NCBI RefSeq assembly: GCF_006094435.1
Contig: NZ_CP034783.1
Coordinates: 3,189,001 to 3,253,000 of the forward strand
Length of the DNA: 64,000 bases
Source of the DNA: Pseudomonas sp. MPC6
Lineage (GTDB): Bacteria; Pseudomonadota; Gammaproteobacteria; Pseudomonadales; Pseudomonadaceae
Direction of reading: 5' to 3'
Shown here: positions 7,221 to 20,199 of the stretch, piece after piece
Layout of the letters: every line of letters starts with the position of its first letter
Numbering within the stretch: position 1 is the first letter of the stretch
Notes under the pieces: generated by a model
Databases searched by the model: none
Told to the model about the DNA's origin: nothing
Seen by the model: only the letters and a program-made list of their open reading frames with translations
Made by a program: the position numbers and the translations under genes

Positions 7221-7344
7221 GGGGAATCTCCGATTTCAAGGCAGAAGAGTCAAAGGGTTGACCCTGGTGTTTTGCCTTGAGTTCGGTTGGATTTCATTGC
7301 TGTTCGGTAAACCTGGGCACCACACAGATCCCCTGTAGGAGATT

Positions 7345-8307
7345 CTATGTTTGGGGGGAAGCCCCAAAAACTGGATTTGGCTGATATTCGCTCTGGTTCT
7401 TCATCAGGGCGAATGCCACCCGTGCCAGCTTGCGAGCCAGGATGACCAGCACTTGAGTCGTCTTTAATCCCCGCTCCAGATAGCGTTCGTAAAACGGCTT
7501 CCAGGTCTTTGAGCGACTGGCAGCCATCGCCGCGTTATGCAGCAGGCGCCGTATCTCTGAGTCACCTTTCTTGGTCAGCTTTCGACGTCCGTTCATCTGC
7601 CCCGAATCAGAGACTCTCAAATCCATTCCAAGAAACGCGATATAGGCGTCACCACTGGCGAAGTCGCCGCGTTGAAATGCCATCGTCAGTGCGGTGGCGG
7701 TAAGAAAACCGACCCCCTCTACGGCCTGGCAGCGTTTGACTTGCTCGAGCAGACCCGCCTCTTTTACGACGTCCAACAGCTTCTTCTGGATGAGTAAATC
7801 CAATCGGCCCATGGCAGCGATCTGTTGTTTGAATGCCGCTTTCAGCAGCGGTTCGTCGTTCCAGCTTTGAGTCAAACTGACACGCGCCTGGACCAATGTC
7901 GCTCGTCTTCGAAGCAGGCTTTGAAGCTTGGTATAGACCTTCGGCGGCGGGCTCCAAGGACGTAGCTCTTCCTCTTCGTTCTTCAAGTAACGCGCCAGTA
8001 AACGGGCGTCGCTGGCATCTGTTTTGGCGCGGCCACCCACTCCTTTGCGGTAATTACTCAAACGGAAGCCGTCGATGACATAGACGGTATGTCCCATTGC
8101 ATGAGCCAGCTCAACCGTATCCAGGTGATAGATATTGGTGGCTTCAATAGCGATGGCGCTGTTTGCAGGTAACGTTTTCAGCCACTTTGTAAGAGACGGT
8201 TTATCGTTTGACACGGCCAACAGCAGATCCGTGTCGGCCTGATAGACCACCACTTCGGCCTTGGCGACATCCACTCCGACTACAGAACGCGAGACACTCA
8301 TTGCCAC
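7345..8307 (-). CDS. IS110-family transposase (copy 1)
   Basis: 320 residues. The N-terminal RuvC-like DEDD domain shows [13 protein letters not shown] (Asp), AIEATNIYH (Glu) and [11 protein letters not shown] (two Asp). The C-terminal Tnp domain carries the helix-hairpin-like [13 protein letters not shown] and the conserved [16 protein letters not shown] with the catalytic Ser. It starts GTG GCA ATG, with GGAG eight bases ahead of the GTG. The protein sequence is the same as that of copy 2. In this family the recombinase works with a bridge RNA made from the element's own non-coding end. Confidence 0.95.
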   Translation of the reverse strand: MAMSVSRSVVGVDVAKAEVVVYQADTDLLLAVSNDKPSLTKWLKTLPANSAIAIEATNIYHLDTVELAHAMGHTVYVIDGFRLSNYRKGVGGRAKTDASDARLLARYLKNEEEELRPWSPPPKVYTKLQSLLRRRATLVQARVSLTQSWNDEPLLKAAFKQQIAAMGRLDLLIQKKLLDVVKEAGLLEQVKRCQAVEGVGFLTATALTMAFQRGDFASGDAYIAFLGMDLRVSDSGQMNGRRKLTKKGDSEIRRLLHNAAMAASRSKTWKPFYERYLERGLKTTQVLVILARKLARVAFALMKNQSEYQPNPVFGASPQT

Positions 8308-8334
8308 AAAGAAAGCTCCGGGTTAGGGTTTAAA

Positions 8335-8495
8335 GGCTTGTCGGGGCTTCACCATTGCGCTGGCTTGCTTCTATCGTCGGTCATGGCCGATGCATTCCTT
8401 ATCGGCGCTTTGGTGAAGGGGTGGGGCGAAGTCTCCCACGGTCTGTACTGGCTAGAGTCAGATGCTGGCTTTTAGTCCCACCACCCCTACAAGTC
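8335..8495 (-). ncRNA. Predicted bridge RNA of IS110 copy 1
   Basis: Mirror image of the structure described for copy 2 (18990-19150). The left-end non-coding segment of about 190 bases lies ahead of the transposase, and two internal-loop stems can be drawn by hand. Its existence is inferred from family knowledge and folding, not seen as a transcript. Confidence 0.55.
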
Positions 8496-8505
8496 TAAAC
8501 ATACA

Positions 8506-8591
8506 AGCTGGCTTGCCAGCGAAGAGGCCCTTCCAGTCGACATCATTGTTGGCTGAAAGGACGCCTTCGCTGGCAAGCCAGCTCCTACAGG
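8506..8591. repeat. REP pair, one arm split by IS110 copy 1
   Basis: Left arm CTGGCTTGCCAGCGAAG adjoins the IS left end; its outer bases CCCCTGTAGGAG lie beyond the IS right end at 7330-7341. The right arm CGCTGGCAAGCCAGCTCCTA is whole. The spacer has the GTCGACATC-type core seen in other REPINs here. Confidence 0.88.
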
Positions 8592-14942: not shown

Positions 14943-15869
14943 TTGGCGACGATTCTTGAGCCTGGCGACATCGAAGCGGCGGCGAGTTCTCCGCCGTTTC
15001 TGCACCTGCCACCGAACAACCTGTTCACGTTGCGGGCACAGCGCCTGGAACGGTTCGCCGAAGGGCATCCCTTGGCCGATTACCTGCGGTTGGTGGCCGG
15101 CCTGTGCCATGTCCAGCAGCAACTGATGGACGATCCACCCGCCACTGCACCGTTGGACCTTGAACGCCTGCGGGTCTGCCAGCAACATGGCCTGCCACCG
15201 TTCGCCGCCGACAGCCTGGTGCGCGAGGGCGAATGGTTGCCGTTCCTCGAAGCGCTGTTGCAGCGGTATCCGCCACCTGCACAACCTGCGGTGGTAAAAG
15301 CCCTGGCGTCTTTGCGCAATGCCAACGCCGGGCAGCTCAAGGCCTGGGCGATTGCGTTGGTCAGCGGCCAGTTCACGCTGGTGCCGACCGCCCTGGTGCC
15401 ATTTCTCGGCGCCGCGTTGCAGGCGGCCTGGAGCCATTGGTTGTTGGGCACACCGAACCTGCAGTTGAAACCCGGCGACAGCCTCAGCCAATGCCCGGCC
15501 TGCGGTTCGCCGGCCATGGCCGGGGTGATTCGCCACCGAGGCAAATACAACGGCCTGCGTTATCTGGTGTGCTCGCTGTGTGCCTGTGAATGGCACGTGG
15601 TGCGGGTCAAGTGCGTGTACTGCGAGCAAAGCAAAGGCCTGGAATACCTCAGCCTCGACGATGACCGCCACGCCGCCGACCAGGCCCCGCTGCGCGCGGA
15701 AACCTGTCCCGGCTGTCACAGCTACCTGAAGCTGCTGTACTTGGAAAACGACGCCGAAGCCGAAGCGCTCTCGACCGACCTGAGCAGCCTGATGCTTGAT
15801 ATGCGCCTGGAGCAGGAGGGCTTTCAACGGCTGGCGCCAAATCTGTTGTTCGCCCCGGGAGGCGACTGA
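14943..15869 (+). CDS. fdhE: Formate dehydrogenase accessory protein FdhE
   Basis: A 308-residue cytosolic maturation factor for respiratory formate dehydrogenases. The C-terminal rubredoxin-like metal sites are visible: CPACGSPA, CSLCACEW, CVYCEQSK and CPGCHSY. The start is a TTG at 14943, with AAGGAT nine bases ahead and no upstream alternative that fits, so a rare start codon is likely. It lies four bases behind fdnI, so it is the last gene of the operon. The REP array starts about 50 bases after its stop. Confidence 0.93.
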   Translation: MATILEPGDIEAAASSPPFLHLPPNNLFTLRAQRLERFAEGHPLADYLRLVAGLCHVQQQLMDDPPATAPLDLERLRVCQQHGLPPFAADSLVREGEWLPFLEALLQRYPPPAQPAVVKALASLRNANAGQLKAWAIALVSGQFTLVPTALVPFLGAALQAAWSHWLLGTPNLQLKPGDSLSQCPACGSPAMAGVIRHRGKYNGLRYLVCSLCACEWHVVRVKCVYCEQSKGLEYLSLDDDRHAADQAPLRAETCPGCHSYLKLLYLENDAEAEALSTDLSSLMLDMRLEQEGFQRLAPNLLFAPGGD

Positions 15870-15919
15870 ACCTGCGATCCTGATCTGCATCCCGCAGGAT
15901 GGTGGAGAACGCCAAACCC

Positions 15920-17456
15920 TGCGTAGGAGCCGGCTTGCTGGCGAAGGCGTCTGCATGGGCGCTGCAAGTCTTGAGACCGCCTTCGCTGGCAAGCCAGCTC
16001 CTACACGATTACCTGCGTACCGATGATTTGCGGAGAACGCCAACCCTATGTAGGAGCCGGCTTGCTGGCGAAGGCGTCTGCATGGGCGCTGCATGACTCA
16101 AGGCCGCCTTCGCTGGCAAGCCAGCTCCTACACGATTACCTGCGTACCGATGGTTTGCGGAAAACGCCAAACCCTGCGTAGGAGCCGGCTTGCTGGCGAA
16201 GGCGTCTGTATGGGCGCTGCATGACTCAAGGCCGCCTTCGCTGGCAAGCCAGCTCCTACACGATTACCTGCGTACCGATGGTTTGCGGAAAACGCCAAAC
16301 CCTGCGTAGGAGCCGGCTTGCTGGCGAAGGCGTCTGTATGGGCGCTGCATGACTCAAGGCCGCCTTCGCTGGCAAGCCAGCTCCTACGCGATTACCTGCG
16401 TACCGATGATTTGCGGAGAACGCCAAACCCTGCGTAGGAGCCGGCTTGCTGGCGAAGGCGCCGGCATGGGCGCTGCATGACTCAAGGCCGCCTTCGCTGG
16501 CAAGCCAGCTCCTACACGATTACCTGCGTACCGATGGTTTGTGGAGAACGCCAAGCCCTGTGTAGGAGCCGGCTTGCTGGCGGAGGCGTCTGCATGGGCG
16601 CTGCATGACTCAAGGCCGCCTTCGCTGGCAAGCCGGCTCCTACACGATTACCTGCGTACCGATGGTTTGCGGAAAACGCCAAACCCTGTGTAGGAGCCGG
16701 CTTGCTGGCGAAGGCGTCTGTATGGGCGCTGCATGACTCAAGGCCGCCTTCGCTGGCAAGCCAGCTCCTACACGATTACCTGCGTACCGATGGTTTGTGG
16801 AGAACGCCAAGCCCTGTGTAGGAGCCGGCTTGCTGGCGGAGGCGTCTGCATGGGCGCTGCATGACTCAAGGCCGCCTTCGCTGGCAAGCCGGCTCCTACA
16901 CGATTACCTGCGTACCGATGGTTTGCGGAAAACGCCAAACCCTGTGTAGGAGCCGGCTTGCTGGCGAAGGCGTCTGTATGGGCGCTGCATGACTCAAGGC
17001 CGCCTTCGCTGGCAAGCCAGCTCCTACACGATTACCTGCGTACCGATGGTTTGTGGAGAACGCCAAGCCCTGTGTAGGAGCCGGCTTGCTGGCGGAGGCG
17101 TCTGCATGGGCGCTGCATGACTCAAGGCCGCCTTCGCTGGCAAGCCGGCTCCTACACGATTACCTGCGTACCGATGGTTTGCGGAAAACGCCAAACCCTG
17201 TGTAGGAGCCGGCTTGCTGGCGAAGGCGTCTGTATGGGCGCTGCATGACTCAAGGCCGCCTTCGCTGGCAAGCCAGCTCCTACGCGATTACCTGCGTACC
17301 GATGATTTGCGGAGAACGCCAAACCCTGCGTAGGAGCCGGCTTGCTGGCGAAGGCGCCGGCATGGGCGCTGCATGACTCAAGGCCGCCTTCGCTGGCAAG
17401 CCAGCTCCTACACGATTACCTGCGTACCGATGGTTTGCGGAAAACGCCAAGCCCTG
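15920..17456. repeat. Tandem array of 127-128-bp REP units (12 units)
   Basis: Units start (GTAGGAGCC) at 15923, 16050, 16178, 16306, 16434, 16562, 16690, 16818, 16946, 17074, 17202 and 17330. Each holds a REP arm, a 25-base centre (GGGCGCTGCATGACTCAAGG), the inverted arm, and a 45-base spacer (GATTACCTGCGTACCGATG...). Units 6, 8 and 10 (with GGCGGAGGCG and CCGGCTCC) alternate with 7 and 9, giving a 256-bp higher-order repeat. Units 4-5 resemble 11-12. A thirteenth unit lies beyond the IS3 element. No gene is encoded; ORFs here are repeat artefacts. Confidence 0.97.
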
Positions 17457-17507
17457 TGAACTGCCCCCCAAAAGTTGGACACAGATCCTGACTTTTGGGG
17501 TGTTCCA

Positions 17508-18035
17508 ATGGGCAAGTATTCCGTGCAGTTCAAAATCACAGCCGTTGAGGCCTACATCAACGGCGACGATGGGTTTCGAAAAATCGCCAATCGCTACTCG
17601 ATTGATTGCAGTCTTCTGCGACGTTGGGTTGCCGCTTTTCAAGCCCGTGGCAGCGCGGGTCTGCGAGCGAATGGTCACCACTACAGTGCGGTGTTCAAGC
17701 TTTCGGTTGTTGAATGTATGCACAAAGAACGACTTTCCTGTCGCGAGGCCGCCACCCGGTTTGGGCTCGGACAGTCTTCGCAGGTGGGCATTTGGGAGCG
17801 CCAGTATTACAGTGGCGGTCTAGATGTACCCAAGAGAAAAAAGACTGTCTCCATGCCAAAAAAATCGCCTGTCCCACCCCAGTCCCCGTTTGTAGATGAT
17901 GATTCGAAAAGTCGGGAACAATTCAAGGCTGAGCTTGAATACCTGCGCATGGAGAACGCCTATCTAAAAAAGCTCGAGGAAATAAGGGAGGCTCCGAACA
18001 GGAGCCGTCCCCCCAAGAAAAAACGCTCACCGTGA
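17508..18035 (+). CDS. IS3-family transposase OrfA
   Basis: 175 residues starting MGKYSVQFKITAVEAYINGD behind GGGGTG. Two helix-turn-helix blocks are present (RKIANRYSIDCSLLRRWV; SCREAATRFGLGQSSQVGIW), followed by a leucine-zipper-like helix (AELEYLRMENAYLKKLEEI). It binds the IS ends. An A6 run at 18018-18023 near its 3' end may allow the -1 frameshift that makes OrfAB in this family, although it is not the canonical in-phase heptamer. Confidence 0.93.
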   Translation: MGKYSVQFKITAVEAYINGDDGFRKIANRYSIDCSLLRRWVAAFQARGSAGLRANGHHYSAVFKLSVVECMHKERLSCREAATRFGLGQSSQVGIWERQYYSGGLDVPKRKKTVSMPKKSPVPPQSPFVDDDSKSREQFKAELEYLRMENAYLKKLEEIREAPNRSRPPKKKRSP

Positions 18036-18862
18036 TAGCGCTGCGCTCGAGGTTTCCTTTGGATGGTCTGCTCAAACTGGCCAATCTCGCGCGCAGTACC
18101 TTTTATTACCAAGTCGGCGCCCTCCAGAAACCTGACAAGCATGCTGACCTGAAAGCCACCATTCAGGGGCTCTATCATGAGCATGAGGGCCGTTACGGTT
18201 ATAGACGCATTACCTTGGCGATCCGCAAAAAAGAGCCCGTCAACGAAAAAAGGGTACAGCGTTTGATGGAAGACATGAATCTGAAGTCGCTCGTGCGACC
18301 AAAAAGGTATCGTTCTTACAAAGGCCTGGTCGGCAAAATAGCGCCGAATCTGCTGGAGCGTAACTTTCTCGCGCAACGGCCCAACCAGAAGTGGGTGACC
18401 GATGTTACGGAATTTAAGGTCGGGCTGAAGAAGCTCTATTTGTCGCCCGTCATGGATCTCTACAACGGCGAGATCCTGGCCTACCAGATCGATACGCGAC
18501 CGAGTTTTGCCTTGGTAACCGAGATGCTGGATAAGGCTATTGAGCAGCTGCAAGGCCCGGTCAATTTAGTGATCCACTCCGACCAGGGCTGGCAATACCA
18601 ACAGCCCCGATACCGGCATGCACTGAAGGATCGAGGAATAAAGCAAAGCATGTCGAGAAAGGGGAACTGCTTGGACAATGCTGTGATCGAGAGCTTTTTC
18701 GGAACACTGAAGTCCGAGTTTTTCTACCTCAACCGTTTTGAAAGCATAGAAGAACTCCAGGCAGGCCTGGACAAATACATCCGTTACTACAACCATGACC
18801 GCATCAAATCGAAGCTCGGCGGACTGAGCCCTGTGGAATACAGAACACAATCCGCTGGCTAG
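18032..18862 (+). CDS. IS3-family transposase OrfB (DDE integrase)
   Basis: 276 residues with an rve integrase core. HTH_21 (GRYGYRRITLAIRKKEPVNE) precedes the catalytic triad: Asp in WVTDVTEF, Asp in HSDQGWQY, and Glu in NAVIESFFGTLKSE. The GTG start overlaps the orfA stop (GTGA). The frame is -1 relative to orfA and is open back across the A6 run, so fusion by frameshift is possible. It appears intact. Confidence 0.95.
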   Translation: MIALRSRFPLDGLLKLANLARSTFYYQVGALQKPDKHADLKATIQGLYHEHEGRYGYRRITLAIRKKEPVNEKRVQRLMEDMNLKSLVRPKRYRSYKGLVGKIAPNLLERNFLAQRPNQKWVTDVTEFKVGLKKLYLSPVMDLYNGEILAYQIDTRPSFALVTEMLDKAIEQLQGPVNLVIHSDQGWQYQQPRYRHALKDRGIKQSMSRKGNCLDNAVIESFFGTLKSEFFYLNRFESIEELQAGLDKYIRYYNHDRIKSKLGGLSPVEYRTQSAG

Positions 18863-18898
18863 CGACAAAAGACCGTCCAACATTTTGGGGTCAGTTCA

Positions 18899-18979
18899 CT
18901 GTGTAGGAGCCGGCTTGCTGGCGAAGGCGCCGGCATGGGCGCTGCAAGTCTCAAGGCCGCCTTCGCTGGCAAGCCAGCT
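18899..18979. repeat. Thirteenth array unit, cut by both insertion sequences
   Basis: GTAGGAGCCGGCTTGCTGGCG at 18903 continues to GCTGGCAAGCCAGCT. It is preceded by the IS3 target triplet and broken at CT by IS110 copy 2. Its centre (GGGCGCTGCAAGTC) resembles unit 1 more than the others. Confidence 0.93.
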
Positions 18980-18989
18980 TGTATGTTTA

Positions 18990-19150
18990 GACTTGTAGGG
19001 GTGGTGGGACTAAAAGCCAGCATCTGACTCTAGCCAGTACAGACCGTGGGAGACTTCGCCCCACCCCTTCACCAAAGCGCCGATAAGGAATGCATCGGCC
19101 ATGACCGACGATAGAAGCAAGCCAGCGCAATGGTGAAGCCCCGACAAGCC
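18990..19150 (+). ncRNA. Predicted bridge RNA of IS110 copy 2
   Basis: The 190-base non-coding left end can fold into two stems with internal loops. Stem 1: GGGGTGG (18998-19004) with CCACCCC (19061-19067). Its internal loop has AAGCCAGC (19014-19021) on the 5' side, identical to the REP target left of the cut, and GTGGGAG (19046-19052) on the 3' side, which complements the right flank CTCCCAC exactly and CTCCTAC with one G-T wobble. Stem 2: TTCACCA-AA-GCGC (19068-19080) with GCGC-AA-TGGTGAA (19125-19137); its donor guides are less clear. The layout matches the bridge RNA known for IS621. Inferred, not observed. Confidence 0.6.
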
Positions 19151-19177
19151 TTTAAACCCTAACCCGGAGCTTTCTTT

Positions 19178-20140
19178 GTGGCAATGAGTGTCTCGCGTTC
19201 TGTAGTCGGAGTGGATGTCGCCAAGGCCGAAGTGGTGGTCTATCAGGCCGACACGGATCTGCTGTTGGCCGTGTCAAACGATAAACCGTCTCTTACAAAG
19301 TGGCTGAAAACGTTACCTGCAAACAGCGCCATCGCTATTGAAGCCACCAATATCTATCACCTGGATACGGTTGAGCTGGCTCATGCAATGGGACATACCG
19401 TCTATGTCATCGACGGCTTCCGTTTGAGTAATTACCGCAAAGGAGTGGGTGGCCGCGCCAAAACAGATGCCAGCGACGCCCGTTTACTGGCGCGTTACTT
19501 GAAGAACGAAGAGGAAGAGCTACGTCCTTGGAGCCCGCCGCCGAAGGTCTATACCAAGCTTCAAAGCCTGCTTCGAAGACGAGCGACATTGGTCCAGGCG
19601 CGTGTCAGTTTGACTCAAAGCTGGAACGACGAACCGCTGCTGAAAGCGGCATTCAAACAACAGATCGCTGCCATGGGCCGATTGGATTTACTCATCCAGA
19701 AGAAGCTGTTGGACGTCGTAAAAGAGGCGGGTCTGCTCGAGCAAGTCAAACGCTGCCAGGCCGTAGAGGGGGTCGGTTTTCTTACCGCCACCGCACTGAC
19801 GATGGCATTTCAACGCGGCGACTTCGCCAGTGGTGACGCCTATATCGCGTTTCTTGGAATGGATTTGAGAGTCTCTGATTCGGGGCAGATGAACGGACGT
19901 CGAAAGCTGACCAAGAAAGGTGACTCAGAGATACGGCGCCTGCTGCATAACGCGGCGATGGCTGCCAGTCGCTCAAAGACCTGGAAGCCGTTTTACGAAC
20001 GCTATCTGGAGCGGGGATTAAAGACGACTCAAGTGCTGGTCATCCTGGCTCGCAAGCTGGCACGGGTGGCATTCGCCCTGATGAAGAACCAGAGCGAATA
20101 TCAGCCAAATCCAGTTTTTGGGGCTTCCCCCCAAACATAG
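19178..20140 (+). CDS. IS110-family transposase (copy 2)
   Basis: The 320-residue protein is identical to that at 7345-8307. The GTG start at 19178 has GGAG eight bases ahead; ATG 19184 is the alternative. The stop TAG lies only about three bases before the right core dinucleotide, so nearly all non-coding sequence is at the left end. This is the IS110-subgroup arrangement (not IS1111). All catalytic residues (Asp, Glu, Asp, Asp and the Tnp-domain Ser) are present, so the element may be active. Confidence 0.95.
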
Positions 20141-20199
20141 AATCTCCCACAGAGGTTCAACGGCTACACTCAGGCCATCAGCGTTTGCGGGAACCCCTG

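Follow-up and report, generated by a model that had tools for sequence, protein, structure and literature searches.

The window, the whole 64,000-nucleotide stretch of Pseudomonas sp. MPC6 contig NZ_CP034783.1 that was analysed (positions 3,189,001 to 3,253,000), carries two copies of an IS110-family element, which are identical over 1,206 nt when the REP flank common to both is included. A CT dinucleotide common to both junctions represents the core and sets the exact limits of the element:

18980..20145, plus strand: IS110-family element, copy 2 (1,166 bp, one CT core counted)
7340..8505, minus strand: IS110-family element, copy 1, identical in sequence to copy 2
18980..19177, plus strand: left non-coding end with the putative bridge RNA (198 bp)
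19178..20140, plus strand: DEDD transposase/recombinase gene (320 aa, GTG start)
20141..20145, plus strand: right non-coding end 3' of the stop codon, its last bases being the core CT (5 bp)

The encoded protein scores over the cut-off for both IS110 domains, namely the DEDD RuvC-like N-terminal domain PF01548 (78.6 bits, cut-off 29) and the C-terminal Transposase_20 domain PF02371 with the catalytic serine (56.6 bits, cut-off 21.3), as well as for the NCBIfam model NF033542 'IS110 family RNA-guided transposase' (167.7 bits against a cut-off of 140). In the PDB, nothing besides IS621 and ISCro4 matches at E 0.001; the serine-loop S-G of both aligns with an S-G of the element protein, and the role of S241 is that given in the IS621 structure paper (PMC11208158). 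The nearest named protein is a cluster at 98% identity, called ISPpu10 by one source, and the likeness to ISPpu10 of Pseudomonas putida is drawn through this named protein rather than through the type sequence. The combination of a long left and a short right non-coding end, a trait of the IS110 group, is present (198 bp versus 5 bp). On this sequence evidence, we assign the element to the IS110 group of the IS110 family as an ISPpu10-like member.

A search of the host genome (7.22 Mb, 4 contigs) recovered 11 full-length copies, along with 6 short matches; a full copy has at most one difference from the reference, at position 837 or 843 within the gene. Plasmids gave no match to the element, whether searched for closely similar DNA or with the protein at E 1e-60, and a search of phages with the element returned 22 records, every one at less than 60% identity. 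Other IS110-family sequences are also present in this genome. Loci L012–L017 are fragments of a second IS110 lineage, comprising four right ends, with best matches of 93–95% to elements of genome G214 and P. cedrina, and two left ends of ~28–31 bp, located at AGGCTCGCT and AAGCTCGCT REPs, which are classes occupied by none of the 11 resident copies. A further IS110-family element with an open frame of 353 aa occurs in two copies (L029, L030) and apparently has a downstream non-coding region, perhaps IS1111-like.

The preliminary description of this DNA had placed both window copies at the same point of a REP, and this extends to the whole genome: all 11 resident copies interrupt a REP at one CT, with AAGCC(A/C)GCT to the left and CC(T/C)AC to the right. 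In each of them the left flank is the REP arm with GCT at its end and the right flank is the REP foot. The left flank is AAGCCAGCT in seven copies and AAGCCCGCT in four, and the right flank is CCTAC in six and CCCAC in five. For the copies in the window, the targets are:

18971..18979, plus strand: left target of copy 2, AAGCCAGCT (REP arm and CT core)
20146..20150, plus strand: right target of copy 2, CCCAC (REP foot)
8506..8514, minus strand: left target of copy 1, AAGCCAGCT
7335..7339, minus strand: right target of copy 1, CCTAC

The general REP pattern GCAAGCNNGCTCCYACA occurs at 2,039 sites in the genome, in several classes, and only 10 intact AAGCCAGCTCCCAC sites are left. Four of the 11 insertions used a AAGCCAGCT REP and left the adjoining inverted AAGCCGGCT REP untouched; the copy at L007 is a counter-example, being inserted in AAGCCCGCT although a AAGCCAGCT REP adjoins. 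The window also contains a tandem array of 12 register copies at ~128 bp spacing (15789–17495), whose units contain two inverted REPs, with AAGCCGGCT on the minus strand and mostly AAGCCAGCT, in some cases AAGCCGGCT, on the plus strand. An IS3-family element (~17457–18898), the transposase of which passes NF033516, separates this array from the REP taken by copy 2; its ends, as read by eye, are inverted, perhaps with a CTG repeat.

The left non-coding end contains candidate guide segments at the locations noted in the preliminary description, flanking a hairpin inside a helix:

18990..19150, plus strand: putative bridge RNA, approximate limits from the alignment
18998..19010, plus strand: 5' arm of the helix closing the target loop, GGGGTGGTGGG
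19014..19021, plus strand: left target guide, octamer AAGCCAGC
19046..19052, plus strand: right target guide, GTGGGAG
19059..19067, plus strand: 3' arm of the helix closing the target loop, CCCCACCCC
19087..19093, plus strand: possible left donor guide, compare the element end AGAATCT (by eye)
19111..19121, plus strand: possible right donor guide ATA-GAAG-CAAG, discontiguous, compare the element start CTTGTAT (by eye)

The target loop is split by the hairpin, with AAGCCAGC on its 5' side and GTGGGAG on its 3' side, inside the predicted helix GGGGTGGTGGG/CCCCACCCC. The left guide, initially described as equal to the REP sequence left of the cut, is exact to the flank in seven of the 11 resident copies and has one mismatch in the other four (guide A, target C), while GTGGGAG pairs exactly with five right flanks and with one G-T wobble with six. 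Despite the few intact AAGCCAGCTCCCAC sites, the copy at 18980 is the sole resident copy that matches its guides perfectly on both sides. Pairing of the donor loop with the element ends is plausible by eye, and this loop hardly varies among relatives.

To relate guides to targets across relatives, we searched 398 genomes of the genus, the host's own included, and found matches at 1e-40 in at least 55, with up to five candidates scored per genome and the results holding among the matches listed. In total, 147 places were read: the 11 resident copies, 29 of 30 genus-search loci (L088, a repeat of L011, was left out), 100 further stretches and seven of 57 named loci. Two of these were dropped as they have no left flank (L036 and L040), giving 145 copies, and the duplicates among them (L217 = L099, L038 = L189) were later removed, giving 143. 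Many relatives among the genus-search matches listed have one stop codon in the aligned stretch, which probably reflects merely differing C-terminal lengths.

The 145 copies (11 resident, two duplicate places) carry 21 different guides in a fixed 9-nt frame, for example AAGCCAGCA, AAGCCCGAT, AAGCTCGAT, AGGCTCGAT, AAGCCGGAT, CAATTCGCA, TAGTTCGCT and GAAGCCGCT. Scored against the commonest target of each guide over seven positions to the left of the core, guides match their own targets at 120 of 147 positions, compared with a mean of 85.0 (sd 4.7, maximum 107) in 100,000 shuffles that ignore relatedness. Among the eight offsets tried, the proposed register gives 847 matches out of 1,015 and the runner-up 443. 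A scan of 358 left-end windows in both orientations, based on 51 genome-guide rows and likewise ignoring relatedness, peaks at the loop with a z of 8.8, the next value being 2.9. Loop bases and targets change together across the 21 guides rather than varying independently, the latter being the outcome that the preliminary description had set against its own reading. Sites lacking the left flank noted there, its other contrary outcome, do occur, namely those of four of the 11 resident copies and of the one copy read from P. putida 17522, all at AAGCCCGCT; they count mildly against the reading.

Parsimony on a transposase tree of 50 of the 51 genome-guide rows (one short protein was left out) requires at least 25 changes for the 21 guides, where the least possible is 20 and the shuffled mean 36.6. 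Among the results listed, independent tree pairs at single positions mostly go in the expected direction, for example 3.3 the same way versus 1.0 the other way at position -5 and 3.0 versus 0 at position -8, and are too few for significance. Opposite the core, just six of the 21 guides have the letters CT; in the others these two letters are AT (nine), CA (five) or AA (one). Guide AGCTCGTCA (G005, G128 and G382; 10 copies) is a poor fit to its targets when read in the common register, and guides AGCCTAGCT (G301) and AGCCTCGCT (Leaf48) show an intermediate fit. The elements with guide AGCTCGTCA (L213, L102, L098) fit their targets only with a one-base shift. A preference for wobble pairs was rejected, as 15 wobble-type and 14 reverse transitions were counted in 61 genome-guide-target rows from which three guides out of register and three atypical sites had been excluded. 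At one locus (L114, G186), the left flank duplicates the right flank (CCCACATTTGGTAGCT) and has no REP arm, as if by secondary rearrangement.

The right guide is far less variable. Among 138 copies with a right flank (duplicates included), GTGGGAG is partnered by CTCCCAC in 129, CTCCTAC in eight and CTCTCAC in one. The variant GTAGGAG is found in G094 (three copies) and G356 (one copy), in all four cases at CTCCTAC, and both copies in G080 have GTGAGAG at CTCCCAC. As judged from these pairings, the right guide co-changes with its target in two lineages only.

Across 49 distinct left ends, the duplex predicted for the arms of the closing helix has an energy of -17 to -27 kcal/mol (calculated without a null), taken per sequence as the best pairing of the two arms. 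This approach was chosen after RNAalifold, applied to the full alignment and rejected, had misaligned the main helix between subfamilies. A variable pair of this helix is T-A in 55 of the 143 copies, A-T in 45 and C-G in 20, with two unpaired and 21 unparsed; it is kept in 120 of the 122 parsed copies, which indicates that compensatory change preserves the predicted helix around the target loop. Within the loop hairpin, one T-A pair is replaced by C-G in five of 50 aligned ends. Fold energy is unremarkable (MFE z -1.24, with 23 of 200 shuffles as good) and was dropped as uninformative. Guide accessibility was likewise set aside, since the mean unpaired probability is 0.44 for the left and 0.39 for the right guide versus 0.41 overall. 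A search of Rfam returned no family at gathering score, its three matches all being far below. Since the fold alone is unremarkable and the guides are no more unpaired than the remainder, the evidence is co-variation rather than fold energy.

Because the copy in the loop changes with the REP taken in relatives, it very probably guides insertion. RNA-guided insertion into REPs by an ISPpu10-like IS110-group element is by far the best reading of these sequences, and one in which we place high confidence; what was first proposed from the window is supported as to the layout of the target loop, REPs as the target and membership of IS110. We hypothesise that the left end encodes a bridge RNA, transcribed as expected from IS621, and that RNA binding, donor pairing and strand exchange would proceed by analogy with that system. 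The left guide would read the variable REP arm, which may be why it varies between elements, and the right guide the nearly constant REP foot, which may be why it is nearly constant.

It is very improbable that the recombinase instead recognises REPs directly, by sequence or hairpin, with the likeness in the loop being a captured or coincidental REP fragment. A simple arm test, run without a null, detects a REP-like hairpin in 132 of 143 left flanks, so that the sites by themselves do little to tell the effect of the hairpin from that of the guide match. However, what speaks against direct recognition is the joint change of guides and targets over 21 guides, the restriction of this co-variation to the target loop among the 358 windows, and the finding that, within genomes, the guide predicts the class taken beyond availability.

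This last finding is based on REP classes counted in 26 hand-chosen genomes, where 85 of 106 copies fall within the five classes tested. Over these 85 copies we observed 503 matches, versus 472.4 (sd 5.9) in availability-weighted draws, a value reached in none of 20,000; counting each genome-guide-class once, the figures are 187 versus 178.4, reached in 62 of 20,000. When wobbles are scored as matches, the copies give 536 versus 517.5, reached once in 20,000, and the single rows reach the observed value in 935 of 20,000. Shuffling guides among elements (26 genomes, 5,000 shuffles) gives a mean of 437.5 (sd 18.8) and a maximum of 511, which is above the observed 503. In G252, which has 604 AAGCTCGCT REPs versus 374 of AAGCCCGCT, all five copies read carry guide AAGCCCGAT and lie in AAGCCCGCT. 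A counter-example is G205, where both copies, with guide AGGCTCGAT, are in AAGCTCGCT despite 95 AGGCTCGCT sites. Guides predict the REP class taken beyond the REP content of the genome, and do so more weakly when each genome-guide-class is counted once. The least probable account, that guides simply reflect whichever REP is most abundant in the host, through shared ancestry or composition and without any guiding, draws on the strong differences in REP content between genomes and on the tendency of related elements to share guides (25 changes versus the shuffled mean of 36.6), but the commonest class of the host is the best fit to the guide for just 12 of the 24 elements, and the null of availability-weighted draws is rejected, less strongly with copies unweighted (62 of 20,000).

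RNA-guided insertion into REPs has close precedents, and the novelty implied by the preliminary description is lower in light of the literature. For IS621 and its relatives, bridge RNAs, the loop layout and guide-target co-variation have been published by Durrant 2024 (PMC11208160), who compared 16 guides with target motifs and included ISPpu10 and ISPa11 among six elements with predicted bridge RNAs; IS621 itself targets REPs. REP insertion by ISPpu10, ISPpu9 and ISPa11 has been in print since 2006, when Tobes and Pareja (PMC1525189) reported seven of seven ISPpu10 copies in REPs, with a 2-bp repeat at the insertion point. There is also sRNA work on ISPpu9 (PMC8450116), and the seekRNA paper (PMC11187229) includes ISPa11, which targets P. 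aeruginosa REPs. Since the 98% identical protein is named ISPpu10, an element whose REP insertion and predicted RNA are both published, we regard the present element as a further case of a published kind.

With IS621 of E. coli the element has in common a CT core, a long left end with an RNA (putative here), a two-sided target loop and a REP target, as well as a protein match at E 2.8e-20. However, the protein is distant and the REP is another one, a gap of 4 nt interrupts the possible right donor guide, and the left guide often matches just one of the two core bases. The seekRNAs of IS1111 and IS110 types follow the same principle, whereas those of IS1111 types usually lie downstream and have their two guides in reversed order.

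Guides following REP classes were absent from the titles and abstracts searched, a scope outside which most subscription papers and all preprints fall, and a natural guide series that follows REP classes, with an availability control, is possibly new. We tentatively suggest, at somewhat less than even odds, that the ISPpu10-like clade represents a series of reprogrammings that arose in nature. Its left guide, by parsimony on the best transposase tree, would have gone through no fewer than 25 changes in step with host REP classes, its right guide would read the nearly constant REP foot, and this one recombinase lineage would be a specialised parasite of the REP system, keeping pace with REP evolution. 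While the guiding mechanism itself is already published for other IS110-family members, these data, comprising 21 guides and a control inside genomes, allow bridge-RNA guiding to be checked independently and in nature, in a clade remote from IS621. They also supply ready-made natural guide-target pairs, tolerated mismatches included, and make the re-evolution of guides in nature a testable question.

At the other end of the element, many but not all of 51 distinct right ends have a hairpin just 5' of the right core (20117–20135 in copy 2), with z values against simple shuffles averaging -2.4 and ranging from -9.1 to 1.3. This hairpin overlaps a possible -35 box of a putative promoter across the joined ends. 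With the spacing fixed at 17 and without a null, the possible -10 box in the 51 distinct joined ends is TATGGT in 30, TATGTT in 18 and TATGCT in three, and the possible -35 box is mixed (TTCCCC 17, TTGCTG 7, TAGCCC 7, TTGCCC 3, others 17).
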